Below are positions 5,632 to 62,410 of a stretch of DNA of 64,000 nucleotides, piece by piece. The notes below the pieces were generated by a model. It had not been told where the DNA came from, ran no database searches, and saw nothing but the letters and a program-made list of their open reading frames with translations. Position numbers and translations under genes: made by a program. Origin of the DNA: Thioalkalivibrio sp. ALJ24 (GTDB lineage: Bacteria > Pseudomonadota > Gammaproteobacteria > Ectothiorhodospirales > Ectothiorhodospiraceae); NCBI RefSeq assembly GCF_000377785.1, contig NZ_KB898727.1:186001-250000 (forward strand). The letters run 5' to 3'. How positions within the stretch are numbered: position 1 is the stretch's first letter; every line of letters begins with the position of its first letter.

Positions 5632-6479
5632 ACGGCGTGTCGCAAGGTCTCGAACGGTTCCGCGAGACGATGCGCCGGGACCGGGTTTTCGACCTCGTCA
5701 ACAACCCCGCGGAGAACCCGGCGCTCGACGTCTCGCATGGCATGGCGCTGTACCTGGAGGGCATCACCAAGTCGTTCGACGGCTTCCGCGCGCTGGATGA
5801 CCTCACCCTGTACATCGGCGACGGCGAACTGCGCTGCATCATCGGCCCCAACGGGGCCGGCAAGACCACCCTGATGGACGTGATCACCGGCAAGACCCGT
5901 CCGGATGCGGGCACCGCGTGGTTCGGCAACCGGATCAATCTGCTCCGTCTGAAGGAGCACGAGATCGCCGGCAAGGGGATCGGCCGCAAGTTCCAGAAGC
6001 CGACCGTCTTCGAAAACCATTCGGTGCACGAAAACCTGGAGCTGGCCCTGCACGCCGACCGCGGCCTGCTGACCAGCCTGACGTGGAAACTGAATGGCGA
6101 ACAGCGGGATCAGCTGGACGAGACGCTGGAACTGATCGGCCTGAAGGAGCGTCGCGATGCGCCGGCCGGCTCGCTGTCGCACGGGCAGAAACAGTGGCTG
6201 GAAATCGGGTCGCTGCTGATGCAGAAGCCCCGGCTGCTGCTGGTGGACGAACCGGTGGCCGGGATGTCCGGCCAGGAGACCGAGGCGACCGCCGAACTGC
6301 TGACCAGCCTCGCCGGCCGCCATTCCGTGGTGGTGGTGGAACACGACATGGACTTCGTGCGGTCCATCGCCCGCCAGGTCACGGTCCTGCATCAGGGCAG
6401 CGTGCTCGCCGAGGGCCGCATGGACGAAGTTCAGGCCGATCCGCGCGTGCGCGAGGTCTATCTGGGCGAGGAGAACTGA
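5628..6479 (+). CDS. urtD: Urea ABC transporter ATP-binding protein UrtD
   Basis: A 283-residue ABC ATPase. Walker A GPNGAGKTT is at residues 73-81, the signature is LSHGQ (in GSLSHGQKQWLEIG), and Walker B RLLLVDEPVAGM follows with the switch histidine in VVVEHDMDFV. LSHGQ instead of LSGGQ is common in UrtD and LivG-like subunits. About 40 extra N-terminal residues precede the ABC domain, as is usual for UrtD. The ATG at 5628 overlaps the urtC stop. It pairs with UrtE to energise UrtBC at the inner membrane. Confidence 0.95.
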   Translation: MNGVSQGLERFRETMRRDRVFDLVNNPAENPALDVSHGMALYLEGITKSFDGFRALDDLTLYIGDGELRCIIGPNGAGKTTLMDVITGKTRPDAGTAWFGNRINLLRLKEHEIAGKGIGRKFQKPTVFENHSVHENLELALHADRGLLTSLTWKLNGEQRDQLDETLELIGLKERRDAPAGSLSHGQKQWLEIGSLLMQKPRLLLVDEPVAGMSGQETEATAELLTSLAGRHSVVVVEHDMDFVRSIARQVTVLHQGSVLAEGRMDEVQADPRVREVYLGEEN

Positions 6480-8878: not shown

Positions 8879-10129
8879 TTACTTGTTCGTGAACTCCGGG
8901 TAGGCCTCGAGGCCGCACTCGGTCACGTCAGCACCGATCTCTTCTTCCTCTTCACCCAGGCGGATGCCCATGGCCATCTTGAGGATGAACCACACCAGCA
9001 GGCTGGCGAGGAAGACGAAGACGAAGATTGCCGCCAGACCCGCGATCTGCGCCACGAAGGTCGCATCCGGGTTGGACAGCAGGACCGCGAGCACGCCCCA
9101 GATGCCGGCCGTGCCGTGGGCCGAGATCGCACCCACCGGATCGTCGATCTTGACCTTGTCGAGCGCGACGATGGAGAACACCACGATCACGCCACCCACG
9201 GCGCCGATGAAGGTCGCCAGCAGCGGGCTGGGCATCAGCGGTTCGGCGGTGATGGACACCAGGCCGGCGACCGCGCCGTTCAGGGCCATGGTCAGGTCAG
9301 CCTTGCCGAACATGAGGCGGGTGGTGATCAGCGCGGCAATCACGCCCCCGGCCGCAGCCAGGTTGGTGTTGGTGAACACGGCCGCCACGGCATTCGCGGA
9401 TTCAACGTCGGACACCTTCAGCTCGGAACCGCCGTTGAAGCCGAACCAGCCCAGCCAGAGGATCAGCACGCCCAGGGTCGCCAGCGGCATGCTGGAGCCC
9501 GGGATCGCGTTGATCTGGCCATCCTTGCCGTACTTGCCCTTGCGCGCCCCCAGCAGCAGGACGCCGGCCAGCGCAGCCACGGCACCGGTGAAGTGGACGA
9601 TGCCCGAGCCGGCGTAGTCGAGATAGCCGATCTGATCCAGGATGCCGCCACCCCAGCTCCAGAAGCCCTGGATCGGGTAGATCACGCCGGTCAGGACCAC
9701 GGCGAAGGCGAGGAAGGCCCACAGCTTCATGCGTTCGGCCACCGCACCGGAGACGATGGACATCGCCGTCGCCACGAACACGACCTGGAAGAAGAAGTCC
9801 GCGCGATCGGAGTAGTAGATGTCGCCCCCGCTGCCCAGTACCTCGGACACGGCGTTGTCACCGGTAATGAAGAAGCCCAGGCCCGGGATCAGCGAAGTGA
9901 GCCCGTCGCTGTACATGATGTTGTAGCCAATCAGCATGTACATCACCGAGGCGATGGAATAAAGGGAGATGTTCTTGGTGAGGATTTCGGCCACGCTCTT
10001 GGTCCGCACCATGCCGGCCTCGAGCATGGTAAAGCCCGCGGCCATCCACATGACCAGCGCGCCGGCCATCAGGAAGTAAAAGGTGTCGAGCGCGTAGGCC
10101 ACCTCGACGACTTGCTGTTCGATATCCAT
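8879..10129 (-). CDS. amtB: Ammonium channel AmtB
   Basis: A 416-residue Amt/MEP/Rh family ammonium channel with eleven predicted membrane segments and the outer end starting MDIEQQVVEV, so no cleaved signal is evident. The pore twin histidines can be placed at H179 (GSGIVHFTG) and H338 (ISAHGTAGIWG). The phenylalanine-gate region FWSWGGG and the conserved D in LDYAGSG are present. It follows glnK by 39 bp, the near-universal pairing in which GlnK plugs AmtB when nitrogen is sufficient. The acidic C-terminal tail (EEEEEIGADVTECG) differs from the E. coli tail. Confidence 0.96.
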   Translation of the reverse strand: MDIEQQVVEVAYALDTFYFLMAGALVMWMAAGFTMLEAGMVRTKSVAEILTKNISLYSIASVMYMLIGYNIMYSDGLTSLIPGLGFFITGDNAVSEVLGSGGDIYYSDRADFFFQVVFVATAMSIVSGAVAERMKLWAFLAFAVVLTGVIYPIQGFWSWGGGILDQIGYLDYAGSGIVHFTGAVAALAGVLLLGARKGKYGKDGQINAIPGSSMPLATLGVLILWLGWFGFNGGSELKVSDVESANAVAAVFTNTNLAAAGGVIAALITTRLMFGKADLTMALNGAVAGLVSITAEPLMPSPLLATFIGAVGGVIVVFSIVALDKVKIDDPVGAISAHGTAGIWGVLAVLLSNPDATFVAQIAGLAAIFVFVFLASLLVWFILKMAMGIRLGEEEEEIGADVTECGLEAYPEFTNK

Positions 10130-10168: not shown

Positions 10169-10519
<351 letters not shown>

Positions 10520-11670: not shown

Positions 11671-12033
11671 TCAGTCGGCTGCCAGCGAGCCGCGCTCGAT
11701 GGTGATGCCGACCTCACGCACGCCGGCCACCGCGCCCGGTTTGCCCAGGGTAATGCGCAGCCAGGGCGAACCGAACTGCGCCATCAGGGTTTCGGCGATC
11801 TCCTCGGCGAGGGATTCGAGAAGGACATGCGGCTCGCGCGTGACGATGGCACGCACCGCATTGGCGACGGCCTCGTAGTCCACGGTATCGCCGATCTCGC
11901 CGGACCGGGCGGCCACGCGAGTGTCTGCCGCCAGCTCGATGTCGAAACGCAGCGGGCGCCGGATACGCTGTTCCCAGCCGTATACACCGACCACGGCGGG
12001 GATCTCCAGATCACGCAGATAGATACGGTCCAT
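11671..12033 (-). CDS. folB: Dihydroneopterin aldolase FolB
   Basis: A 120-residue enzyme that splits dihydroneopterin to hydroxymethyl-dihydropterin and glycolaldehyde in folate synthesis. It aligns with E. coli FolB along its whole length: MDRIYLRDLEIPAVVGVYGWEQ, the catalytic-site segment LLESLAEEIAETLMAQF, and LGKPGAVAGVREVGITIERG. The start is set at the ATG at 12033 (MDRIYLR), where homologues begin; an ATG three codons upstream is also possible. It is a single gene, divergent from the amidoligase gene 111 bp away. Confidence 0.93.
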   Translation of the reverse strand: MDRIYLRDLEIPAVVGVYGWEQRIRRPLRFDIELAADTRVAARSGEIGDTVDYEAVANAVRAIVTREPHVLLESLAEEIAETLMAQFGSPWLRITLGKPGAVAGVREVGITIERGSLAAD

Positions 12034-12144
12034 GCGGGGCACCGGGACATCAGGGTTGCGGGGCCGCTTATCCTACTGCCTGCCCCGACCCGCGTACACC
12101 GGGCCGCGTTATGATGGGGCCCGTACCGCGACCGGAAGCCCTTC

Positions 12145-13140
12145 ATGCCCGCCCATCCGTTTCCCGCACTGCCCTGGCCCCGCACCCCCGAGGGCACCCT
12201 GCGCCGGGTGGGAGTGGAGATCGAGATGGCCGGGGTGTCGCTGGACGCCATGGCCCGGGCGATCCTTGATGAATTCGGTGGGCGCATCGAGGCGGAACAC
12301 GCCTTCGTGCTGCACGTGCGCGACAGCGAGGTCGGAGACTTTCAGCTGGAACTCGATGCCCGGGTACTGAAGGACCGTGCCTACCGCGAACACCTCGCGC
12401 GCCTGGGCATCGACCTCGACGATCGCGACCAGCAGGCGCTGGAGGCCTGGCTGGCCGATGCCGCCGGCCGGCTGGTGCCCCACGAGATCGTCGCGCCCCC
12501 CCTGGAACCGGAGATGCTCCCGCGCCTGGACCGGGTACGCGCGGCCCTGCAGCGCGAGGGTGCTCTGGGCACCGAGCGCTCGCTGCTCTACGCCTTCGGG
12601 CTGCAACTGAACATCGAGATCCACAGCCGCGAGCCCGAGTGGCTGCTGGCGATCCTGCGCGCGTTCGTGCTGATGTACGAGATCCTTACCCAGGCCGGGG
12701 CGATCGATCTCGCACGCCGCCTGTCGCCCTACATCCGGCCGTTCCCGGGCGCCTTCGTGCGCTACATCCTCGACCCGGATTTCACCCCCGACCGCGCCTC
12801 TCTGATCGACACCTACCTGGCCCACAACCCCACGCGCAACCGCCCGCTCGACCTGCTGCCAGTCCTGGCGGAGCTGGATCCGGAACGCGTTGCGGCCGCG
12901 CCGGTGGAGCACGAACTGATCAAGCCGCGCCCCGCACTGCACTACCGGTTGCCGGACTGCCGCATCGACGACCCCCGGTGGAGCCTGGCGCATCCGCTGA
13001 ATGGCTGGGTGGAAGTGGAGCAGCTGGCCGCCCACCCCGAACGCCTGGAGCGGCTCGCGCAGGAGTATCTGGAACGTCCCGGCCAGGCCGTGGGCCGCCG
13101 GGCCGACGAGTGGATGCAACGCCTGCGTGAATGGTTCTGA
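12145..13140 (+). CDS. Amidoligase-family enzyme (carboxylate-amine ligase fold)
   Basis: A 331-residue protein of the amidoligase family (PF12224), related in fold to glutamine synthetase and glutamate-cysteine ligase. The N-terminal RRVGVEIEMAGVSL carries the paired glutamates expected to bind metal/ATP. Later blocks are FGLQLNIEIHS near residues 152-162, the helical LMYEILTQAGAIDLARRLSPYIRPFP, and RLPDCRIDDPRWSLAHPLNGWVEVE towards the end. Such enzymes are predicted to join a carboxylate to an amine with ATP. A class I glutamine amidotransferase overlaps its end, an association described for this family. The substrates are unknown. GGAAG lies eight bases before the ATG. Confidence 0.85.
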   Translation: MPAHPFPALPWPRTPEGTLRRVGVEIEMAGVSLDAMARAILDEFGGRIEAEHAFVLHVRDSEVGDFQLELDARVLKDRAYREHLARLGIDLDDRDQQALEAWLADAAGRLVPHEIVAPPLEPEMLPRLDRVRAALQREGALGTERSLLYAFGLQLNIEIHSREPEWLLAILRAFVLMYEILTQAGAIDLARRLSPYIRPFPGAFVRYILDPDFTPDRASLIDTYLAHNPTRNRPLDLLPVLAELDPERVAAAPVEHELIKPRPALHYRLPDCRIDDPRWSLAHPLNGWVEVEQLAAHPERLERLAQEYLERPGQAVGRRADEWMQRLREWF

Positions 13141-13945
13141 TCGCCAGCAGCGCCCGGTGATCGCCATCACCGGGCCGGACCGTGGCGGCACGCCCGCGTG
13201 GCTGTTCACCGCCCTTGCGGTATGGCGCGCCGGCGGCCGCCCGCTGCGCCTCCGCCCCGGCGCCCCGCGACGCAACCGACCGATCGACGGCCTGATCGTC
13301 GGGGGCGGCGCGGACGTCGACCCCGCGCTGTATGACGGGGCCACGCCCGAAGGCCCCGGCACCGCGGCGATACGCCGGGCCGAAGGCCGCCTGTCGCAGC
13401 GTCTGATCGGCTACGCCTTCTACCCCGCTCTGTGGCTGCTGCGCCGGCTGTTTCAGTCCAAAGACGCCTCCTCGCTGGATCCCGAACGCGACCGCATGGA
13501 AAAGGCCCTGATCCACCACGCGCTGGACGAACACCTGCCGATCCTCGGGATCTGCCGCGGGATGCAGCTCATCAACGTGGTGCGCGGTGGCAGCCTGCAT
13601 CGCGATCTGGCCGCGTTCTACGCCGAAACCCCCAATGCCCGCAGCCTGCTGCCGGTCAAGCGCGTACGGCTGGATCCGCATTCACGCCTGGCCGCCATCC
13701 TGGGCGATCCGCCGCTGCACGTGAATGCCCTGCACGACCAGGCCGTCGACCGGCTCGGCCAGGGCCTGAACGTGGCCGGACGCGAGCCCTCGCGGGTGGT
13801 CCAGGCCATCGAGACCGAACAGGACTTCTGTATCGGCGTGCAATGGCACCCCGAATACCTGCCGCAGAAGACCCGCCACCAGCGCCTGTTCCGCGCGCTG
13901 GTCACAGCGGCACGCCGCCCCCGGCCTCAGGCCGACGACGGATAA
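13127..13945 (+). CDS. Class I glutamine amidotransferase-like / gamma-glutamyl hydrolase (PuuD-like)
   Basis: A protein of about 272 residues with the class I GATase triad visible: Cys143 in [11 protein letters not shown], and His241 and Glu243 in [10 protein letters not shown]. The N-terminal [13 protein letters not shown] and the middle [16 protein letters not shown] are typical of the PuuD/gamma-glutamyl-GABA hydrolase branch. The start is uncertain: GTG at 13127 overlaps the amidoligase by 14 bp, and GTG at 13157 is the alternative. An insertion near residues 90-120 ([16 protein letters not shown]) is longer than in PuuD. Coupling to the amidoligase suggests it makes ammonia for it or trims a gamma-glutamyl product. 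It overlaps the convergent msrA end by 19 bp. Confidence 0.86.
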
Positions 13946-14571
13946 GCGACGCGCAGCCCGCCCAGGCCGCAGTAGCCATCCGGAACCTTCGCCAGATACT
14001 GCTGGTGGTAGTCCTCGGCGAAGTAATACGCCTCCAGCTCGCGGATCTCGGTGGTGACCGGCCCCAGCCCCGCCTGCTGCAGCGCGGCATTAAAGCGCTC
14101 GCGGCTGGCGAGCGCAGCCTCGTAATGGACCGGGCCCACGGTGTAGATACCGGAACGGTACTGGGTCCCGACGTCATTGCCCTGACGCATCCCCTGGGTC
14201 GGATCGTGCCCCTCCCAGAACGTACGGAACAGGGTCTCCAGTGACACCGCGCCCGGATCGAACACCACCCGCACCAGTTCGGCGTGGCCGGTCTGGCCGC
14301 TGCAGACCTCGCGGTAGGTCGGGTTGGGGGTGTAACCGCCGCCATAACCCACGCTGGTGGAATACACCCCGTCGAGCTGCCAGAACAGTCGCTCGGCGCC
14401 CCAGAAGCAGCCCATGCCGAAGTGGATGATCTCCATGCCATCGGGGTACGGCGGCGCCAGCGGGGTCCCCAGCACCGCATGGCGTTCCGGCACCGGCATC
14501 GCCTCTGCCCGGCCGGGCAGAGCGCGCTCCGGGTCCACCATCTGCGGCTGCATCCAGTCACCGAACATCAT
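13927..14571 (-). CDS. msrA: Peptide-methionine (S)-S-oxide reductase MsrA
   Basis: A 214-residue reductase that repairs methionine S-sulfoxide in proteins with thioredoxin. The catalytic Cys55 is in [10 protein letters not shown]. The conserved [25 protein letters not shown] and [23 protein letters not shown] follow, and a resolving cysteine lies near the C terminus (DGYCGLGG). The 45-residue N-terminal extension is the same type as in E. coli MsrA (212 residues). Its ATG overlaps the stop of the sugar dehydrogenase gene by 4 bp (ATGA). It has its counterpart MsrB at 52484. Confidence 0.96.
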
Positions 14572-60823: not shown

Positions 60824-62410
60824 GTGGGAAAAGAAGAACGCAATCTGCAGGCCCTGGTCACGCAGCTGGCGGAGTTCCTGCCCAGCGGCAGCCTGCACGG
60901 CCGGGTCGGGCTGGAGAAGGAGACCCTGCGCGTCGGCCCGGACGGCTCGCCGGCGCGTACGCCGCACCCGCCGGCACTGGGCTCGGCCCTGACCCACCCC
61001 CATATCACCACCGATTACTCGGAGGCCCTGCTGGAGTTCGTCACCCCGCCGTTCGACGACGTGCGCGAGACCCTCGGGTTCCTCCACGACCTGCAGGCGT
61101 TCGCCGCGGCCAGCGTGGGCGACGAGATCCTGTGGTCCACCTCCATGCCCTGCGTGACCGCCGACGACTCGGCGATCCCGGTGGCCGACTACGGGCCCTC
61201 CAACGCCGGGCGCATGAAGACCGTCTATCGCCTGGGACTGGGCCACCGCTACGGGCGCAAGATGCAGGTGATCGCCGGAGTGCATTTCAACTACTCGCCG
61301 CGCGAGGAGTTCTGGCCGGCACTGGCCCGGGTGCTCGGCGAGGCCGATAACCGCGAGTTCCGCGACACGCGGATGATGGGGATGATCCGCAACCTGTTGC
61401 GCTTCGGGTGGCTGGTGCCGTATCTGTTCGGCGCCTCGCCGGCGGTCTGCAACTCGTTTCTCGAGGGTCACGGCACCACGCTGGAGGACTTCGACGACGA
61501 CACCAGCTATCTGCCGCATGCTACCAGCCTGCGCATGGGGGACATCGGCTACACCAATCGCAAGGAGGCGGACACCGGGATCAAGGCCGACTACAACAGC
61601 CTCGCCGGCTATGTCGATTCTCTGCGCTGCGCAATCAATACCCCCTGCCCGGAATGGGAGGCGCTGGGGGTCAAGGTCGACGGTGAATACCGCCAGCTCA
61701 ACGCCAACATCCTGCAGATCGAGAACGAATACTACTCCACCGTGCGTCCGAAGCAGCCGCTGGAGCGCTTCGAAAAGCCCACCGACGCGCTGGAGGCCCG
61801 CGGCATCGAGTACGTGGAACTGCGGTCGGTCGACATCAACGCGCAACACCCCCTCGGCGTGGACGAGACCCAGCTGCGCTTTCTCGAGACCTTCGCACTG
61901 GCCTGTCTGCTGCAGCCCAGCCCCGCCTTCGGCCCGGGCGAGCTGGAGGCAATCGACGCCAATCTGCTGCAGGTGGCGCACTACGGCCGGCGCCCGGGCC
62001 TGATGCTGCAGCGGCCGCAGGGTGATGTCTCCCTGCAGGAATGGGCGCGCGAACTGCTGGCGCTGATGCGCCCGGTGGCCGCCATGCTCGACCAGGACCG
62101 CCCGGGCGATCCGTATCGCCGGGCCCTCAGCGAGCAGTGGGGCAAGGTGGAACAGGCCGACCTGACGCCCTCGGCGCGCATGCTGGAAGACATGATGGCG
62201 CGCGAGGAGGGCTTTCACGTGCATGCCCGGCGCCTGTCGGCCCAGCACCGCGAGGCGTTCCGCTCCAACGGGCCGCTGCCGCGCGCCGACATGCTGGAGA
62301 CTCTGGCGCGCCAGAGCCTGGCCGAGCAGGCGGAGATCGAGGCGGCCGATACCCTGGACTTCGACACCTTCCTGCAGCGCTACTTCGACGGCACCCTGCG
62401 CCACGCCTGA
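60824..62410 (+). CDS. gshA: Glutamate-cysteine ligase GshA
   Basis: A 528-residue proteobacterial-type ligase (E. coli enzyme 518) making gamma-glutamylcysteine, the first step to glutathione. Recognisable parts are GRVGLEKETLRVG near the start (metal/ATP glutamates), DYSEALLEFVTPP, YRLGLGHRYGRKMQVIAGVHFNYS, and LQIENEYYSTVRPKQP with VELRSVDINAQHPLGV. A GTG at 60824 is taken as start because homologues begin there and no in-frame ATG lies nearby. It is followed 27 bp later by a transsulfuration enzyme gene that could supply cysteine. Confidence 0.96.
   Translation: MGKEERNLQALVTQLAEFLPSGSLHGRVGLEKETLRVGPDGSPARTPHPPALGSALTHPHITTDYSEALLEFVTPPFDDVRETLGFLHDLQAFAAASVGDEILWSTSMPCVTADDSAIPVADYGPSNAGRMKTVYRLGLGHRYGRKMQVIAGVHFNYSPREEFWPALARVLGEADNREFRDTRMMGMIRNLLRFGWLVPYLFGASPAVCNSFLEGHGTTLEDFDDDTSYLPHATSLRMGDIGYTNRKEADTGIKADYNSLAGYVDSLRCAINTPCPEWEALGVKVDGEYRQLNANILQIENEYYSTVRPKQPLERFEKPTDALEARGIEYVELRSVDINAQHPLGVDETQLRFLETFALACLLQPSPAFGPGELEAIDANLLQVAHYGRRPGLMLQRPQGDVSLQEWARELLALMRPVAAMLDQDRPGDPYRRALSEQWGKVEQADLTPSARMLEDMMAREEGFHVHARRLSAQHREAFRSNGPLPRADMLETLARQSLAEQAEIEAADTLDFDTFLQRYFDGTLRHA

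Follow-up and report, generated by a model that had tools for sequence, protein, structure and literature searches.

The ligase-amidotransferase locus

The stretch of DNA analysed here, called the window below, is 64,000 nucleotides long and comes from a Thioalkalivibrio genome of 2.81 Mb. It carries two overlapping genes on the plus strand, a ligase gene followed by a gene for a glutamine amidotransferase (GATase)-type protein, with a gene on the minus strand at either side:

11671-12042, minus strand: FolB, divergent from the ligase gene
12145-13140, plus strand: Amidoligase_2 (PF12224) protein, 331 amino acids, open reading frame from ATG 12145 to TGA 13140, 187.3 bits
13127-13140, plus strand: 14-bp overlap of the ligase and GATase frames, GTG 13127 against TGA 13140
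13127-13945, plus strand: C26 / class I GATase-fold protein, 272 amino acids, GTG start in frame, PF07722 at 140.5 bits
13391-13453, plus strand: hydrophobic helix of the AlphaFold model, GATase residues 89-109, within a lineage-specific insert of about 36 amino acids
13553-13555, plus strand: codon of the catalytic Cys143, GICRG nucleophile motif
13847-13849, plus strand: codon of the catalytic His241, QWHPE motif
13853-13855, plus strand: codon of the catalytic Glu243, QWHPE motif
13927-14571, minus strand: MsrA, convergent, overlapping the end of the GATase gene by 19 bp

The longest open reading frame of the GATase opens at ATG 13001, but the plausible start is an in-frame GTG at 13127. 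The GTG was preferred since it lies just before the conserved domain and gives an overlap of exactly 14 bp, the length that the preliminary description had reported; counted from this codon, the first strand of the GATase model starts at residue 11. The overlap of the frames probably reflects translational coupling. No promoter or terminator was found by a consensus scan. In a Pfam scan of four window neighbours, FolB and MsrA are followed further out by a GSDH-domain protein and a Gcw_chp protein, so that the earlier remark that no other clear pathway gene stands beside the pair was a fair one.

The ligase

In the Pfam scan the product of 12145-13140 matches PF12224 with an E-value of 5.5e-55, far above the cut-off of 22 bits and over positions 3 to 244 of the 245 in the profile. 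It is a predicted ATP-dependent carboxylate-amine ligase with the catalytic fold of glutamine synthetase (GS). Its AlphaFold model (pLDDT 92.3) aligns with glutamine synthetases at a VIA Z of 12.6 and 3.8 A over 213 residues, and the best 50 structure entries listed for it are all GS or GS-like. Given that the alignment begins at residues 89 to 139 in most of the GS chains listed, the N-terminal domain of GS appears to be missing from the ligase. Foldseek alone gave no match to the model in the PDB at E ≤ 0.001, comparison of the ligase profile with six close GlnA sequences was not significant, and no solved structure was found by sequence among the ligase relatives. Among viral proteins, 12 Foldseek matches were obtained at E ≤ 0.001, of which 8 are named amidoligase.

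Alignments were made of 79 of the 81 listed ligases and of 60 of the 78 listed GATases, over-long GATase N-termini being trimmed. The ligase alignment contains 14 invariant columns in its 79 rows, and the invariant residues include R20, G23, E25, E27, D71, E114, N156, R231, D236, R262, H266 and R268. We infer that the polar ones serve in the active site. As judged from these residues and from those of the GATase, both active sites look intact.

The GATase is a C26 protein close to PuuD and SpuA

The second protein matches PF07722 (E 9e-41, cut-off 20.5 bits) and PF00117 (E 3.3e-15). As both members of the pair lie far over curated cut-offs, their matches are not due to chance. Cys143, His241 and Glu243 are invariant in the 60 rows of the GATase alignment, which bears out the preliminary description of a ligase next to a class I GATase with an intact Cys-His-Glu triad. 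The class I assignment stands as to fold and family but not in the sense of a generic GATase, since the protein belongs to C26, with PuuD, SpuA and Lin1909 as the nearest proteins. Indeed, the closest folds to its AlphaFold model (pLDDT 87.0) are those of the uncharacterised protein Lin1909 (Z 27.7), PuuD (27.5) and SpuA (25.6-26.1), the latter two being the nearest characterised ones, whereas the next other protein stands at 21.0 and the ammonia-donating GATases at 21.0 or less. Two other enzymes that cleave gamma-glutamyl bonds, Arabidopsis gamma-glutamyl peptidase 1 and the gamma-glutamyl hydrolase 1l9x, reach 19.3 and 19.0; hence its closeness in fold is to PuuD and SpuA and not to gamma-glutamyl hydrolases at large. 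A profile search gave the same order, with 3fij at 1e-47, SpuA at 4e-35, PuuD at 3e-33 and GMP synthetase subunits at 3e-12 or weaker. PuuD is described, in the part of the source available, as a hydrolase of a gamma-glutamyl amide, and the SpuA structure entries contain a glutamyl thioester. The protein is best described as a PuuD/SpuA-like C26 protein for which hydrolysis of gamma-glutamyl bonds or of glutamine is predicted. It is distinct from PuuD itself, given that it scores 76.9 bits against the NCBIfam PuuD equivalog NF008471, below the cut-off of 266.

The length of the GATase is bimodal among 141 measured relatives, in which some genomes are counted twice: the insert is present in 102 and absent from 39. 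In its helix (residues 89-109) hydrophobic residues are abundant and are accompanied by one arginine pair. On the model, this helix is a possible membrane element or ligase-docking element.

The two genes are inherited together

The GATase comes after the ligase in 75 of the 79 named loci L052-L130, and one of the four exceptions (L082) ends at a contig edge. The raw count for the whole list is 136 of 151; seven of its 15 misses are over-long open reading frames that do pair, as judged by eye. The same order is seen in another class, in 20 of the 21 genomes that have the ligase. The preliminary description had made its pairing depend on the genes co-occurring elsewhere, which they do. Furthermore, in 79 of 107 loci the two frames overlap, mostly by 4 or 14 bp, and in another 24 they lie within 30 bp of each other. 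This count (110 loci, three without a start) includes some genomes twice and takes, for each GATase, whichever in-frame start is closest to the stop of the ligase, a choice biased towards short distances. Across 1770 pairs from 60 loci, ligase identity and GATase identity correlate at 0.80, a value calculated with no control gene and of a kind that shared ancestry alone would also give. The presence of the GATase insert requires three changes on the ligase tree and three on the GATase tree, both of the quick kind. The ligase and GATase are co-inherited.

A ligase or a fragment of one is found in all 30 genomes of the genus (window genome included), in 13 of 17 other genomes of the family and in 6 of 145 more distant genomes. 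In a phylum-wide sample of 398 genomes it occurs in 24, two of these being weak matches, and in the other class mentioned above it occurs in 21 of 337 genomes. Another search gave at least 572 relatives. Records of the pair span nine phylum labels, several being MAGs. Ligases lacking an intact GATase partner include those of L042, L045, L077, L125, L130, L150, L151 and L184. At L042 the GATase is cut to a C-terminal remnant (near 5742-6098, minus strand) and the adjoining ligase is intact. Among the seven plasmid loci examined of 11 records matched, three have the pair and four a ligase without partner; plasmids of the soil genera Azospirillum and Microvirga carry ligases, the partner being absent from those of their loci that were examined.

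On the ligase tree the window ligase belongs to a starred set of five rows, of which the other four are Thioalkalivibrio. The ligases of Desulfurivibrio sp. AMeS2 and of a Desulfobulbaceae MAG (L060 and L063) nest among those of Thioalkalivibrio though they are of another phylum, in a starred set of eight (96) within a starred set of thirteen (99). Their GATases fall in a matching starred set of fourteen (99), inside or beside Thioalkalivibrio. FolB was not found beside these two pairs, and the flanking genes scanned there, which encode an HD-domain protein, a radical SAM protein and one protein without a family, differ from the window flanks. The ligase-GATase pair has probably moved between phyla as a two-gene unit. 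No viral relatives of the window ligase clade were found in viral_contigs, nor in phage records at E 0.01, and the PADLOC anti-phage defence models gave 0 families for either protein.

Neighbouring genes

No third gene following the pair across lineages is broadly conserved, which gives no support to the earlier suggestion that the pair is part of an undescribed pathway, in the sense of one encoded nearby; apparently the pair can do without further dedicated genes. For 86 same-strand neighbours, retained from 105 candidates after genes of more than 1000 amino acids and near-duplicates had been removed by hand, no family exceeded five members among the best 25 of 115 families. Likewise, 52 neighbours (of 81 candidates) of 12 partnerless ligases displayed no shared theme and no gamma-glutamyl-cleaving family among the best 25 of 64 families.

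Within single lineages some neighbours are retained. In the Wenzhouxiangella clade (L069-L079) a same-strand downstream gene of one cluster is present in 9 of 9 loci, in 8 of which it is the next gene, and in L074 (8900-9800) ATGA overlaps are seen at both junctions of ligase, GATase and downstream gene. The one member of that cluster scanned, from L070, is the glutamine synthetase adenylyltransferase GlnE, a link that could possibly tie the pair to the control of glutamine synthetase. A gamma-glutamyltranspeptidase gene lies directly upstream of the pair in three related Pseudomonas loci. In 10 Thioalkalivibrio loci, a count with some genomes included twice, a gene of 417 amino acids is kept about 3 kb from the pair, and its size and place match an AmtB-like frame of the window. 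The latter (8879-10129, minus strand) and a GlnK-like frame (10169-10507, minus strand) were named by eye and lie about 2-3 kb from the pair. Our impression is that the neighbours lean to nitrogen and glutamine metabolism.

Function of the pair

We tentatively favour, at somewhat below an even chance, a gamma-glutamyl ligase working with a hydrolase that matches it, in other words a writer and an eraser of the same kind of bond. At the expense of ATP, the Amidoligase_2 protein would activate a side-chain (gamma) carboxylate, in the simplest case that of glutamate, and join it to an amine, a reaction of the kind carried out by GS-fold enzymes such as PuuA and the aniline enzyme. For its part, the C26 protein would form a glutamyl thioester on Cys143 and hydrolyse a bond of the same type, either preventing the build-up of the glutamyl-amine or freeing it after use. 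Both proteins, made from overlapping frames, would act together on an amine from general metabolism, and with such a source the lack of an accompanying pathway gene would be understandable. We infer in this way the use of ATP, the gamma-glutamyl chemistry and the direction of each step. The earlier guess of gamma-glutamyl-like or amide metabolites is still of the right class.

The gamma-glutamyl ligase and hydrolase are favoured because the GATase is nearest, among characterised proteins, to PuuD and SpuA both by sequence and by fold, and because a GS-like synthetase of aerobic aniline degraders is paired with a GATase-like enzyme acting in reverse, the two making and undoing the same bond according to the available part of the source (PMC7500099). 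Other enzymes of gamma-glutamyl bonds are also found near Amidoligase_2 genes, namely the cyclotransferase or UPF0131 proteins of phages and the gamma-glutamyltranspeptidase of Pseudomonas. The GS catalytic fold of the ligase, the tight coupling of the two genes and their co-inheritance speak for it as well. Against it, making and cutting one bond from a single operon would be wasteful unless one of the steps is under regulation or the two act on different substrates, there is no conserved intervening enzyme, and some ligases have no partner, nor a gamma-glutamyl-cleaving family beside them among the best 25 of 64 families. The two other gamma-glutamyl-cleaving enzymes, which score no better in fold than the ammonia-donating GATases, also count against it. 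Furthermore, the class II GATase beside some phage amidoligases fits a supply of ammonia better. This last observation belongs to a reading that we regard as a serious candidate although clearly short of even, in which the two proteins are subunits of one glutamine-dependent amide synthetase: the C26 protein would hydrolyse glutamine and pass the ammonia to the ligase, which would convert an ATP-activated carboxylate into an amide. As subunits of one enzyme their genes would stay together, and the near-constant 1:1 pairing, the overlapping frames and the lack of a broadly conserved third gene are consistent with this, while the insert helix could serve as a docking surface. In phages LUZ24 and phiEco32 the amidoligase lies beside an unrelated class II GATase, and what the latter would share with the C26 protein is the hydrolysis of glutamine; PF12224 is also found with PF13522 in OM43 phages, as the available part of the source has it (PMC10580990). 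An annotated glutamine-using gene adjoins the amidoligase in two more of six phage stretches, but four of the six carry an annotated cyclotransferase or UPF0131 gene, so that the phage stretches do not decide between an amide synthetase and a ligase with its hydrolase. What tells against the amide synthetase is that none of the ammonia-donating GATases listed comes as near to the GATase, by sequence or by fold, as PuuD and SpuA do, and that ligases without a GATase partner exist.

The remaining explanations are less probable. A membrane-associated form of the glutamine-dependent amide synthetase, serving adaptation to salt or alkali and with the insert helix holding the GATase at the membrane, is unlikely; its product would be, for example, an uncharged carboxamide solute or an amidated envelope carboxylate. 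Many named loci carry haloalkaliphilic or marine genus names, as read from record titles, and the closely similar pairs shared by relatives in two phyla give a hint in this direction. Ectoine synthase was found in 14 of 24 ligase-bearing against 45 of 374 other Pseudomonadota genomes (398 genomes, p 4e-7) and, in genus counts made by hand, in 10 of 19 against 24 of 194 (p 1e-4), p-values that are too small given that the genomes are related. This association is a habitat correlate, not a function. Indeed, the window genome gave no match to ectoine synthase, and soil plasmids of Azospirillum and Microvirga carry ligases, both of which argue against a salt or alkali role. An N-carbamoyl-glutamine amide osmolyte was rejected except as one form of this membrane-associated reading: of three papers that mention carbamoyl-L-glutamine together with Ectothiorhodospira, the one examined, in its available part, names the compound as a solute but no gene; of two carbamoyltransferase neighbours seen, the one identified is at L071, a Wenzhouxiangella. 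A side branch of folate or pterin metabolism, in which the ligase would add and the C26 protein remove glutamyl or amide groups, in the manner of folate gamma-glutamyl hydrolase, is more doubtful still. In the window, and in those other Thioalkalivibrio loci that cover the upstream region, a divergent FolB gene adjoins the ligase; on plasmid pDSHI02 of Dinoroseobacter shibae it is co-directional and just upstream, and in five loci a member of one gene cluster is found close to the pair, the one member scanned (L040) being MetH. However, FolB and MetH neighbours occur in few lineages, FolB is beside the pair in no other locus examined, and it is missing from the two Desulfobulbaceae loci of the Thioalkalivibrio set; being the sole FolB match in the window genome, the window FolB is probably a housekeeping gene. 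On pDSHI02 (L157, 2207-4351) the FolB-type gene is a divergent one that reads in the same direction as the pair, and a gene of the homocysteine S-methyltransferase family lies beyond it. That the two genes are chance neighbours of unrelated function is hardly credible: a 14-bp overlap alone could arise in a compact genome, but adjacency is conserved across records with nine phylum labels and the insert trait tracks both trees. A replacement for glutathione was rejected in view of an ordinary glutamate-cysteine ligase, GshA, in the window (PF04262, 504 bits, 60899-61975, plus strand); the GCS2 profile gave no match, and a PF08886 profile search carries no weight, having given none in any control genome.

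Comparison with known systems

Iyer et al. 2009 reportedly predicted the Amidoligase_2 family and its pairing with GATase-like proteins in silico, and the Pfam text for PF12224 presumably describes the partner as a GATase-like thiol peptidase. The window ligase matches the family profile over nearly its full length and is paired with a GATase-like protein, so that nothing essential differs from the family; the hydrophobic insert of the window GATase is a difference from the 39 of 141 relatives that lack it.

The gamma-glutamyl-polyamine systems PuuA/PuuD and SpuI/SpuA likewise combine a GS-fold ligase with a C26 hydrolase, but the window ligase belongs to Amidoligase_2 and not to PF00120. A PuuA/PuuD route is unlikely in the window genome, which has one PF00120 match and four other, weak C26-profile matches (20-35 bits, at or over the cut-off), and no Puu-type oxidase or aldehyde dehydrogenase (PuuB/PuuC) is present among the four window neighbours scanned. 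The aniline pair, a gamma-glutamylanilide synthetase and a GATase-like enzyme, resembles the window pair in having a GS-like and a GATase-like member of which the second reverses the first, a likeness of description, but it works with a dioxygenase, of which there is none among the window neighbours scanned (PMC7500099, available part).

In the cassettes of phages phiEco32, LUZ24 and Aeromonas phage LAh_9, Amidoligase_2 adjoins a glutamine amidotransferase-type gene as well, but in LUZ24 and phiEco32 the latter is a class II GATase (GATase_6) and in the window a class I one. The phage cassettes also have a PF14395 ligase, an ATP-grasp and a cyclotransferase gene, none of which occurs among the four window neighbours scanned. 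Their ligases are distant, scoring 24-34 bits against PF12224 and showing no significant profile match to the window ligase clade. In six phage loci (L186, L187, L214, L215, L216 and L217) Amidoligase_2 was seen with an ATP-grasp gene, most with a second COOH-NH2 ligase, and in some of these groups a class II GATase, a cyclotransferase or an 'aminotransferase' is also present. Among the papers searched, the accession PF12224 occurs in two, both on phages, and a later paper, in its available part, cites the 2009 work for an alteration of the cell wall in which the amidoligase and GATase of phages would take part (PMC10580990). The available parts of PMC10945688, PMC10580990, PMC8976061, PMC3517423, PMC5498523, PMC11318856, PMC7500099, PMC9397018 and PMC7824335 report no assay of a PF12224 protein.

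Since the two-gene unit is kept in records with nine phylum labels and all 30 genomes of the genus have the ligase or a fragment of it, the pair probably does something useful. The window pair is a well-supported member of a family pairing that had already been predicted.
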